Below are positions 17,916 to 23,797 of a stretch of 33,687 nt of DNA, in pieces. The stretch's first letter is position 1, and every line of letters starts with the position of its first letter. The stretch covers positions 1-33,687 of the forward strand of contig JAIFWI010000007.1 in assembly GCA_019661945.1 (NCBI GenBank), in the 5' to 3' direction. The position numbers and the translations under genes were made by a program. The stretch is from Candidatus Parcubacteria bacterium (lineage in GTDB: Bacteria > Patescibacteriota > Minisyncoccia > Phycocordibacterales > JAKAEA01). The notes beneath the pieces are model-generated. The model had not been told where the DNA came from and ran no database searches. It saw only the letters and a program-made list of their open reading frames with translations.

Positions 17916-20600
17916 ATGTCAAAAGTTGAATTACACAGCGATAATAAAGATAAAATCATCGTAAAGGGGGCGCGGACACATAACCTCAAGAATATTACAG
18001 TTGAAATGCCGCGCAACAAGATGGTGGTTTTCACCGGGCTTTCAGGATCAGGAAAGTCTTCTTTAGCTTTTGATACGATTTTTGCTGAGGGTCAGCGTCG
18101 CTATGTCGAATCGCTTTCTTCATATGCGCGGCAATTTTTACGTCAGATGCAAAAGCCGGATGTTGATGAAATCATTGGTCTCTCTCCTGCTATTTCCATT
18201 GATCAGAAATCTCGTTCAAATAATCCTCGTTCAAATGTGGCTACCATTACCGAGATCTATGATTATTTGCGTATTTTATATGCCCGCATTGGTAAACCTC
18301 ATTGTTTAGTGTGCGGTCGAGAAATAAAAAAACTCTCTCAAGAAGAAATTATGCACACGGTGCTCGACACAGTTTCAAAGATAGATATGTCAGGAAAGCA
18401 GAAACAAGTCATGGGCGTGAAATATGATGACATGAAACTCCAAATCTGGTCGCCGCTTGTGGTTGGCCGAAAGGGTGAATATTATCAAATGCTCTATGAT
18501 CTTTTAGGTAAAGGCTACACTCAGGTGAAAGTGGATGGCAAGGCTCAGAAACTTCGTGAGCAAATCATTTTAGATAAAAATAAGAAACATGATATTGATG
18601 TCCTCGTCGATGAAATCTATTTGAGTGAATTTAAGGATGCAAAGGCAAATTCTAAAGAGCGCTTGAGCGAAGCGGTTGAAAAAGCGCTTGAAGAATCAAA
18701 GGGATTATTGAAAATAGAAAGTCCCGAAGGGGAGAAACTCATTTCTTCAAAATTCATGTGTCCGTATGACGGTTTTTCATATCCAGAAATTGAACCGCGA
18801 CTGTTTTCATTTAATTCTCCATATGGGGCATGTGCAACCTGTAATGGTCTTGGCACAAAATATTTCTTCGGCGAAGAATTATGTCCAACCTGTAATGGCA
18901 CTCGGCTTCGCGAGGAAGCTTTACATGTTTTCTTGGGGGATAATGATGCGCTTCAGCTTCCTGAGAAAATTGCAAGGTCCTCGGGTCGGGTCACCAGACC
19001 ATTGCAATTTTCTCAGGAAGCCTCCGCGCAAAGGGGTCTCAACATCTCCAGTTTAGTTGGCCTCTCAATCAAGGATGCCTATACATTTTTTCAAAATCTA
19101 AAACTCAGTCCCAAAGACCGAAGCATTGCCAAAGTTGTGCTCAGGGAAATTGAGTCACGTCTCGTTTTCATGATTGATGTTGGCATTGAATACCTCACTT
19201 TGAATCGTCGGGCTAACACTTTGTCTGGTGGTGAAGCACAACGAATCCGTTTAGCATCACAGCTGGGCTCTGGTCTTGTCGGCGCATTGTATGTTTTAGA
19301 TGAACCGACAATTGGTTTGCATCAGCGCGATAATGATCGGCTTATTAAAACACTGCTCAATCTCCGTGATTTAGGAAACACTATTGTTATTGTCGAGCAT
19401 GACGAGGATACTATTTTTTCTTCTGATTATATAGTGGATATTGGACCAGGTGCAGGAGTACATGGCGGTGAAATTGTCGCTTCGGGATGGCTTGATAAAT
19501 TGCTGACTGCAAAAAAGAATGATTCGAAATCTGTAACTTTGGCATATTTGCGTGGTGAAAAGAAAATTGAAATTCCAGAAGAGCGCCGCACTCAGGACAA
19601 GGGTAAAATCATGATCCGCAACGGCAATATTTTCAATATTAAGAATATGGATGTAGATGTGCCGCTTGGCAGACTGATTACAATTACCGGTGTCTCTGGT
19701 TCGGGTAAGTCTACATTTATGTATGAAATTATTCATAAGAATGTTCAGGCCCGTTTTGACCGCCGTTACCGCTCAAATGAGACATACAATGCTTCAAGCT
19801 TTGTTGGTACTGAATATCTTGGCCGGGCAGTGTTGATTGACCAATCAGCCATTGGCCGTACGCCTCGCTCAAATCCAGCGACATATACCGGGGCATTTAC
19901 CTTTATTCGCGATATGTTTGCTACAACCTCTGAAGCCCGAGCTCGGGGTTGGAAAGCTAATCGTTTTTCGTTCAACGTAAAAGGTGGACGTTGCGAAGCA
20001 TGTCAGGGTAACGGCGAAATTGCTGTTGAAATGAGCTTCTTACCGACGGTGTATGTGCCGTGTGATGTTTGTGATGGCAAGCGTTTTATGAAAGAGACAC
20101 TTGAAATTAAATACAAAAAGAAAAATATTTACGAAGTCTTGAAGATGACGGTTGAAGAAGCTGTGGATTTTTTTGATGATATTCCGGCTATTTCTGATCG
20201 ATTGAAAACATTGAATGAAGTCGGACTTGGCTATCTTGAACTTGGACAGTCTGCTACAACCCTTTCTGGCGGTGAGGCGCAGCGAGTAAAAATTTCTTCA
20301 GAACTATACCGGCCACATGTTCAGAAAACTATTTATCTTTTGGATGAGCCGACTATTGGACTTCATTATGAAGATGTCAAAAAACTTATAGAAATTCTCC
20401 AGAAATTGGTGGATAAAGGCAATACGGTCATTGTCATTGAGCACAATATGGATTTGGTGAAGTCATCTGACTATATTATAGACATTGGACCGGAAGGCGG
20501 AGTCGGTGGCGGCAATATTGTGGCAAAGGGCACACCAGAGGAAGTGGCTAATAATCCCAAAAGCTATACCGGAAAATATTTGAAGAAAGTTTTGAAGTAA
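17916..20600 (+). CDS. uvrA: Excinuclease ABC subunit A (with in-frame palindromic insertion)
   Basis: [37 protein letters not shown], zinc motifs [45 protein letters not shown]. Confidence 0.98.
18948..19029. repeat. Palindromic element inserted in uvrA
   Basis: Perfect 20-bp arms GCTTCCTGAGAAAATTGCAA (18956-18975) / TTGCAATTTTCTCAGGAAGC (19002-19021) around core GGTCCTCGG..CCAGACC; shared with the uvrC element. Confidence 0.85.
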
Positions 20601-20802: not shown

Positions 20803-20858
20803 TACTCCTCCTTGTGTGGTTGAAGTTGCTTCCGGTCCTCGAATACATTACTATCTAA

Positions 20859-22202
20859 ATGATGAATAGTCAAGTGCAGAGCAGAATAAAAGACCTTCCA
20901 GACACACCGGGTGTGTACTTTTTCCTCGGCTCGCCGAAGCATGGCGAAGGCGGCAAAGCCGAAATTCTCTACATTGGCAAGGCTACATCACTTCGAGACA
21001 GGGTTCGAAGTTATTTTGGTAATGATGTTATCAACACTCGTGGGCCTTTTATTGTCGATATGGTTACTCTGGCGCAGGATATTGATTTTACGAAAACTGA
21101 TTCGGTGCTTGAGGCGCTGCTGCTTGAGGCGAATTTAATTAAAAAGCATCAGCCAAAGTACAATACAAAAGAGAAGGATAATAAAAGTTATAACTATGTA
21201 GTTATTACCGATGAGGATTTTCCAAAAGTTTTGACAATTAGAGGAAGAATGTTACTAAGATCGCTTCAGCAGCCTGGGAAATTTTCAAGGTCCTCGGATC
21301 TCCCGTCTGCGCGGGCCAGACCATTGAAAATTTCCCAGGCTGCTTACGCTTCAGCCGAGTATAAATTTATATTTGGTCCATTTCCACACGGCGCTCAGCT
21401 GAAAGAAGCGATGAAGATTATTCGCAGAATTTTTCCATTTCGAGATGATAAGTGCACTCCAAATCAAGGCAGGCCTTGTTTTAATCGGCAGATAGGCCTT
21501 TGTCCTGGAGTATGCACTAGTGAGATTTCAAAAGAAGAATATGCTGAACAGATTCAGAATCTGAGACTATTTTTTGAAGGTAAGAAGAAAACCCTGCTCA
21601 AGAATCTTGAAAAACAGGTGAAGGAGTATGCCAAAAGACAGGAGTTTGAAAAAGCCGGTCAGACTCAAAAAACAATATTCGCCTTAAATCATATCCAAGA
21701 CATTGCTCTGCTTAAACATAAACTCGATCAGTCAGCTGGTGGTGAATTTGCTCGCAATGATAGATCAGGAGTATTCCGTATTGAAGCATATGATGTCGCT
21801 CATAGTTCCGGAAAAAATGTGGTTGGAGTGATGGTTGTAGTAGAAGATGGTGAAGTAAATAAATCTCAGTACAGAAAATTTAAAATAAAACTAAATCCTG
21901 GTGTGAATGATACCGGGGCACTTAAGGAAATTTTACGTCGGCGGTTAGGGCATCTCGAATGGCCAATGCCAAATCTTATTGCTGTTGACGGCGGCCAGGC
22001 TCAAATTAATGCTGCCGAAACAGTGCTTAAAGAACGAAATTTTAACATTCCTGTTGCTTCAGTTGTGAAAGATGAGCGTCACAAACCTCGAGAAATAATG
22101 GGCAATGGCACTAATCATGAGCAATCTATACTTCTGGCCAATAGCGAGGCCCACCGTTTTGCTATAACCTATCATCGAAAAAAGAGGGATAAGATAGCTT
22201 GA
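20859..22202 (+). CDS. uvrC: Excinuclease ABC subunit C, lacking C-terminal HhH region
   Basis: GIY-YIG (PGVYFF...ILYIGKATSLRDRVRSYF), CFNRQIGLCPGVC, UVR-like segment, RIEAYDVAHSSGKNVVGVMVV, LIAVDGGQAQINAA, EAHRFAITYHRKKR then stop. Confidence 0.95.
   Translation: MMNSQVQSRIKDLPDTPGVYFFLGSPKHGEGGKAEILYIGKATSLRDRVRSYFGNDVINTRGPFIVDMVTLAQDIDFTKTDSVLEALLLEANLIKKHQPKYNTKEKDNKSYNYVVITDEDFPKVLTIRGRMLLRSLQQPGKFSRSSDLPSARARPLKISQAAYASAEYKFIFGPFPHGAQLKEAMKIIRRIFPFRDDKCTPNQGRPCFNRQIGLCPGVCTSEISKEEYAEQIQNLRLFFEGKKKTLLKNLEKQVKEYAKRQEFEKAGQTQKTIFALNHIQDIALLKHKLDQSAGGEFARNDRSGVFRIEAYDVAHSSGKNVVGVMVVVEDGEVNKSQYRKFKIKLNPGVNDTGALKEILRRRLGHLEWPMPNLIAVDGGQAQINAAETVLKERNFNIPVASVVKDERHKPREIMGNGTNHEQSILLANSEAHRFAITYHRKKRDKIA
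21258..21355. repeat. Palindromic element inserted in uvrC
   Basis: Perfect 20-bp arms GCAGCCTGGGAAATTTTCAA (21269-21288) / TTGAAAATTTCCCAGGCTGC (21324-21343), core GGTCCTCGG..CCAGACC; CGCTTCAGC at 21262-21270 and 21347-21355. Confidence 0.85.
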
Positions 22203-23642: not shown

Positions 23643-23668
23643 AAAAAATCGCCAAGCGGCGATTTTTT
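23643..23668 (+). terminator. tRNA terminator
   Basis: AAAAAATCGCC-aagc-GGCGATTTTTT. Confidence 0.8.
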
Positions 23669-23669
23669 C

Positions 23670-23797
23670 GTGGACCGGAAGCAAGCAAACTGCTTTGCTT
23701 GCGGGAGGACGAGAAAGCCGGAGCGCGACGGCGCGAGGCGGGGTCGCGCAAATTCGCAGTAGCGAATTATGTGTGACCGAGACTCTCCGGTCCACCA
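23670..23797 (+). repeat. tRNA-3'-end-flanked multi-hairpin element
   Basis: gtggaccgga (23670-23679) / tccggtccac (23786-23795) closing stem; internal gcaagcaaa/tttgcttgc, aattcgc/gcgaatt, ggtcgcgca/tgtgtgacc; ends in a copy of the tRNA 3' end with CCA. Confidence 0.65.

Follow-up and report, generated by a model that had tools for sequence, protein, structure and literature searches.

A near-wholly palindromic, probably transposable element is carried in frame in uvrC and uvrA of a Parcubacteria genome

The uvrC and uvrA genes of a Candidatus Parcubacteria bacterium are each interrupted, in frame, by a copy of a palindromic element that is present in 16 copies in the 860-kb genome. We take these inserts to be a non-autonomous, near-wholly palindromic transposable element of about 66 to 115 nt that inserts as a complete hairpin and duplicates about 6 to 7 bp of its target, and we put the probability of this reading at about 0.8. 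The element inserts as a whole unit, duplicates its target in a subfamily, is dispersed, occurs in frame within genes and changes its two arms in a compensatory manner. The stretch of DNA analyzed here (the window, 33,687 nt) is contig 32 of the genome, and the analysis covered almost all of this genome, stretch by stretch.

The inserts in uvrC and uvrA

An earlier note on this DNA had described palindromic inserts in the two genes with a shared tip, matched arm changes and a common reading frame, and all of these features are present (Table 1). The arms of both elements are Watson-Crick paired at 20 of 20 positions, and therefore, every difference between the uvrC and uvrA arms is matched on the opposite arm. 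Both tips start with GGTCCTCGG and end with CCAGACC. Together with the bulge, the tip measures 35 nt in the uvrC element and 26 nt in the uvrA element; both lengths are 2 mod 3, and the difference of 9 nt agrees with the claim that the cores differ by a multiple of 3. Hence, the units with their 20-bp arms are 75 and 66 nt long, and both frames are kept. The folding z-scores are −8.06 for the uvrC element and −8.14 for the uvrA element, with 0 of 200 shuffles as stable. The elements in the window had no match in Rfam.

Table 1. Positions of the host genes and of the parts of the two elements in the window
Feature	Positions	Strand	Basis
uvrC, host gene, 447 aa, interrupted in frame	20859..22202	+	Pfam UvrC_RNaseH and GIY-YIG; alignment with relatives
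CGCTTCAGC, left member of direct repeat around uvrC element; uncertain, possible target-site remnant	21262..21270	+	sequence; direct-repeat test in own genome
uvrC element, left arm, 20 nt	21269..21288	+	20/20 paired with right arm
uvrC element, tip, core type A, GGTCCTCGGATCTCCCGTCTGCGCGGGCCAGACC	21289..21322	+	common to 8 other copies, one difference in total
uvrC element, bulged A, 3' of tip	21323..21323	+	fold; A or G in nearly all copies
uvrC element, right arm, 20 nt	21324..21343	+	20/20 paired with left arm
CGCTTCAGC, right member of direct repeat around uvrC element	21347..21355	+	sequence; direct-repeat test in own genome
uvrA, host gene, 894 aa, interrupted in frame	17916..20600	+	Pfam; alignment
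uvrA element, outer stem, left strand, TGCGC	18947..18951	+	inverted repeat; fold
uvrA element, left arm, 20 nt	18956..18975	+	20/20 pairing
uvrA element, tip, core type D	18976..19000	+	sequence comparison of copies
uvrA element, bulged A	19001..19001	+	fold
uvrA element, right arm, 20 nt	19002..19021	+	20/20 pairing
uvrA element, outer stem, right strand, GCGCA	19026..19030	+	inverted repeat; fold

Alignment with relatives places both inserts in linkers of variable length, between FPKVLTIRGR and YKFIFGPF in UvrC and between LHVFLG and GLNI in UvrA. In the predicted model of UvrC, the insert is a loop (residues 141-165) with a pLDDT below 50, and the remaining protein is well predicted. Judging from the sequences and this model, the hairpins of uvrA and uvrC are most likely translated as flexible loops. 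A 23-nt inverted pair (20826-20848 and 23662-23684, 87% complementary) is also found in the window; its first member lies just before uvrC and contains GGTCCTCG.

Copies, empty sites and target duplications

Closer inspection of the genome revealed the element within genes only in uvrA and uvrC. The remaining 14 of the 16 copies are intergenic or stand at gene ends, and most of the intergenic ones directly follow or overlap a stop codon; their sites include groES-groEL, grpE-dnaK, gatC-gatA, and ruvX and its neighbor. The earlier view of an element in two excision-repair genes is therefore right as to the two copies, which are real, but not as to any specificity for such genes. The unit is 66 to 115 nt long and is an inverted repeat over its whole length. 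Nine copies have tip A, two each have tips A', B and C, and tip D is found in uvrA alone; across the nine A tips there is one difference in total. A covariance model run on the genome found no further copy besides one palindrome without a tip (L113:12656-12710, E 5e-5). This palindrome of 43 bp, with only TGG at its center and arms that resemble those of the copy at L114:3962 at 18 of 20 positions, lies about 30 nt from another copy upstream of dnaK and is an element that lost its tip. A second, unrelated palindrome family (core CTCGCAGAACCCGCGTCAAATTCTGCTGAATTTGCTGCTCCGCTCG...GCGCGAG) has three copies with locus-specific paired arms in the same genome (L134:1900-2020, L172:3887-4001 and L172:5386-5492), one of which adjoins a copy of the main element.

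The pairing of the arms is maintained by compensatory change. In an alignment of 14 copies, 92.9% of the cells are paired. Of the 24 base pairs in the main helix, 17 differ among copies at both positions, and no pair varies at one position alone. The covariation test that the earlier note had proposed gave a score of 0.567, compared to 0.147 ± 0.021 for shuffled alignments (0 of 500 reached it) and at most 0.145 for slid structures, which served as a control. Left and right arms of the same copy pair at 17.9 of 20 positions, and left arms pair with the right arms of other copies at 10.3 of 20. Covariation beyond the shuffles indicates conserved pairing and is not proof of an RNA function.

A comparison with empty sites, likewise proposed before, was possible with the closest searchable relative, a complete 982-kb genome of the same family (G002), in which no copy of the element was found and whose syntenic gaps are without the whole unit. 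At collinear gene pairs with a tip-A copy (unit of 75 nt), the gap exceeds that of G002 by 74, 75, 78 and 79 nt; the excess is 94, 89 and 115 nt with longer tips, and 150 and 223 nt where two palindromes sit. Control gaps differ by +7 and −1 nt (own genome minus G002). Because the gains match the tip and both arms, not the tip or the tip and one arm, the element inserts as a whole unit. Single gaps are no proof alone, since at one gene pair, where a palindrome from a different family (F2) sits, the gap differed from G002 in the opposite direction (−65 nt).

Two other origins of the units were considered and rejected. Insertion of the tip into pre-existing palindromes is at odds with the net insertion of whole units and with a single tip-less palindrome against 16 filled ones. 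Copying of the arms from the host gene end seemed likely, as the arms contain stop codons, but the gene ends of G002 show that these codons came with the element (the EVE-like gene has gained ISSFAA and rnhB has gained SLRKKSRIF...), and the gain in length is too large. The copy after rnhB extended that reading frame. The C-termini of RNase HII (L114:8304-8954) and of the EVE-like protein (L109:15343-15819) are altered relative to G002 by insertion at the gene end.

Target duplications were found in Campbellbacteria. One genome (G254) has the same tip on conserved arms (GAATTACGAAATGC...) at 46 listed places, and its congener G197 has this tip at at least 10 places by BLAST and at none by DNA pattern. 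For two of the G254 insertions, G197 has a clean empty site, and the comparison reveals 6-bp target duplications (ATATTA and TGTTAT). In this subfamily, a perfect 7-bp direct repeat is present in 26 of 62 strand-wise records (31 copies), compared to 3.4% with swapped flanks, and the repeats lie mostly exactly 5 nt outside AATTA...TAATT. The signal is weaker in the genome under study, yet present: flanks match at 6 or more of 7 positions in 11 of 16 copies (3.8 by swapping), and perfect 7-bp repeats flank 3 copies (0.44 by swapping). The direct repeat CGCTTCAGC around the uvrC element is not claimed as a target duplication, since its offset of 85 nt is not a multiple of 3. The TTC/TTC internal loop beside the arms may be a remnant of duplicated targets. 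Covarying arms, syntenic sites without the unit in a relative, and exact empty sites and target duplications in a congener pair support the suggestion that this is a structured, frame-compatible mobile element.

The copies may have been moved by a transposase acting in trans. A search for shared ends gave no clear candidate, with no transposase bracketed by the ends of the Campbellbacteria element in the loci examined.

Histories of tips and arms

In the genome under study, identity over the outer 12 nt of each arm is no higher between copies with the same tip (0.342) than between copies with different tips (0.344), and the inner 8 nt are 0.75 alike. The tip-A copies are 0.99 identical in the apical part and 0.67 in the arms, with an outer arm identity at the shuffled level in a gapped alignment. 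In five Nomurabacteria, vertically inherited copies at a common position in the gene for CCA transferase show the reverse order (apical part 0.56, arms 0.79). In Campbellbacteria, the arms are conserved (0.92-0.97). That identical tips stand on arms with no relation outside the inner 8 nt would mean that the tip was homogenized or spread separately from the arms. Furthermore, about 10% of the arm positions are unpaired and only about 0.3% of the tip positions differ; this points to old arms and to tips that were made alike recently.

The same decoupling would also be explained if every insertion made its own arms at the target, by fold-back synthesis or by copying of the flank, so that the arms were locus specific from the start. 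The similarity of the outer arms, which is independent of the tip and falls to the shuffled level with gaps, is what such a process would leave. However, the proportion of unpaired arm positions relative to tip differences argues that the arms are older, the net insertion is the full unit and not the tip plus one arm, the Campbellbacteria arms are conserved, the arms of L114:3962 and of the tip-less L113:12662 are alike although they stand at different loci, and empty UvrD alleles bear no trace of an arm (see below). We therefore consider arms made anew at each site unlikely.

The reading we prefer for the separate behavior of tips and arms is gene conversion centered on the tip. Tips may have been homogenized between copies of this genome, for example, by the repair of breaks at extruded hairpin tips with another copy as the template, and the arms would meanwhile have drifted under the pairing constraint only. 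It is imaginable that the tip of 34 to 55 nt is copied between resident palindromes independently of the arms, by conversion or homing of hairpin tips that might follow the cleavage of extruded hairpins, but we propose this tentatively and at less than even odds. If it is true, a selfish tip rides on arms that are shaped only by pairing and the host reading frame. A tip history that is separate from the arm history is a testable sign of conversion acting on DNA hairpins.

Hosts, distribution and known systems

Within the order, a DNA pattern for the tip matched 16 of 397 genomes, and the reversed control gave no match; among 381 genomes drawn from the phylum, none outside the order matched. 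Since the pattern misses divergent copies, these genome counts are lower bounds. Named matches with arms are from Nomurabacteria, Kaiserbacteria, Adlerbacteria, Campbellbacteria and other Parcubacteria. Matches in genome contigs of phyla other than Patescibacteria and 15 matches in viral contigs, all without arms, were rejected as chance. As far as searched, the element is confined to one order of Patescibacteria.

Of 70 records examined (a few of which repeat one locus), 45 have the tip inside an open reading frame of 180 aa or more; the tip is read in all forward frames and in reverse. According to NCBIfam, the host proteins are RecG, LigA, PcrA/UvrD, UvrB, UvrC, RecJ, DNA polymerase I, CCA transferase and LeuS, as well as PheS, PheT, Tgt, MnmA, PrmC, RseP, ParB, YchF and NifS. 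Repair and replication genes are frequent in these counts, which were made without regard to gene length or linker content, and Di Nocera and co-workers noted the same of the hosts of REPs (PMC3733652). The concentration of surviving copies behind stop codons and in variable linkers of proteins may reflect the loss of insertions elsewhere.

PcrA/UvrD of one genus (8 genomes) illustrates the polymorphism of such linkers. At a first site, the element is present in two genomes, an unrelated palindrome in one, and five are empty, with no trace of an arm in the empty alleles; a second site holds further palindrome families. In genus g90 (L353, L355, L356 and L360), a third in-frame palindrome family (GGTGTCTCGCAGGC...GACAGCGACCC, peptide GVSQADEPRGSA) sits in the same two UvrD linkers and has further matches elsewhere in those genomes. 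These are very reduced genomes, and yet several unrelated palindrome families occupy the same linkers of the same essential enzymes; the shared-linker insertions are a natural experiment in how proteins gain loops.

Most copies directly follow a stop codon, often within an operon (groES-groEL, grpE-dnaK, gatC-gatA), and their structure is strongly conserved, as might be expected if the palindromes were host-functional structured RNAs (mRNA 3'-end stabilizers or processing/attenuation hairpins) selected at each locus, with the two coding copies incidental. Such a function is unlikely, as the closest relative with a complete genome lacks the element in the corresponding intergenic gaps, insertional polymorphism and target duplications occur in Campbellbacteria, and the element is in frame within dozens of unrelated proteins, in both orientations and all forward frames.

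REPs are palindromes found mostly downstream of coding regions but also inside uvrA, uvrB, UvrD, polA and other repair genes (PMC3733652), and the element resembles them in both respects. That the palindromes are REPs moved by RAYT (Y1) tyrosine transposases is nevertheless improbable. REPs are indeed known in the uvrA, uvrB and UvrD genes of other phyla (PMC3733652), and RAYT-like Y1 genes are present in 14 of 16 genomes with the element, compared to 6 of 12 without it; on the other hand, two genomes with the element have no Y1 gene, and the Y1 genes examined (32 loci) are flanked by their own, different palindromes. In Paceibacterota (L327-L352), for example, these are gene specific and have a center of 0 to 1 nt (in L342, ACCTTAAGCAAGAAC-G-GTTCTTGCTTAAGGT). 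Despite the higher frequency of Y1 genes alongside the element, we name no mobiliser, since these genes carry other palindromes. REPs measure 20 to 40 bp and have an unpaired GTAG or CGTC tag, whereas the element measures 66 to 115 nt, is untagged in most copies (GTAG stands beside 1 of 16) and duplicates its target. We therefore rejected membership among the REPs. Least probable of all is an intervening sequence or translational bypass element that is removed from the RNA or skipped by ribosomes: the hairpins within genes are very stable, but the frames are open, the lengths preserve the frame, most copies are outside genes, and the inserts lie in length-variable linkers and in a predicted flexible loop, so that removal from the RNA would not be needed.

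In-frame palindromic elements have been described before in Rickettsia and, in the form of REPs, in the repair genes of other bacteria; in the literature searched, we found no earlier report of them in the Candidate Phyla Radiation. The element behaves like an RPE and like a MITE. The RPEs of Rickettsia and the WPEs of Wolbachia are palindromic repeats of about 100 to 150 bp that lie in frame in many unrelated proteins, at exposed or variable sites (PMC10969869, PMC3767692), and the element shares with them the in-frame palindrome in many unrelated proteins of small-genome bacteria. It differs in that it belongs to a different phylum, carries a 34-nt tip on copies with unrelated outer arms, and has 6- to 7-bp target duplications at exact empty sites, of which the RPE study consulted makes no mention. 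The exact empty sites and target duplications offer a handle on the movement of palindromes, which the RPE and REP literature has left open. With MITEs and foldback elements, it has in common that it is short, noncoding and dispersed, with terminal inverted repeats (here the whole element), no transposase gene, and target duplications at exact filled and empty sites in the Campbellbacteria subfamily. No autonomous partner was found in the loci examined. Unlike MITEs, nearly the whole element is one hairpin, with divergent, covarying arms and a homogeneous tip.
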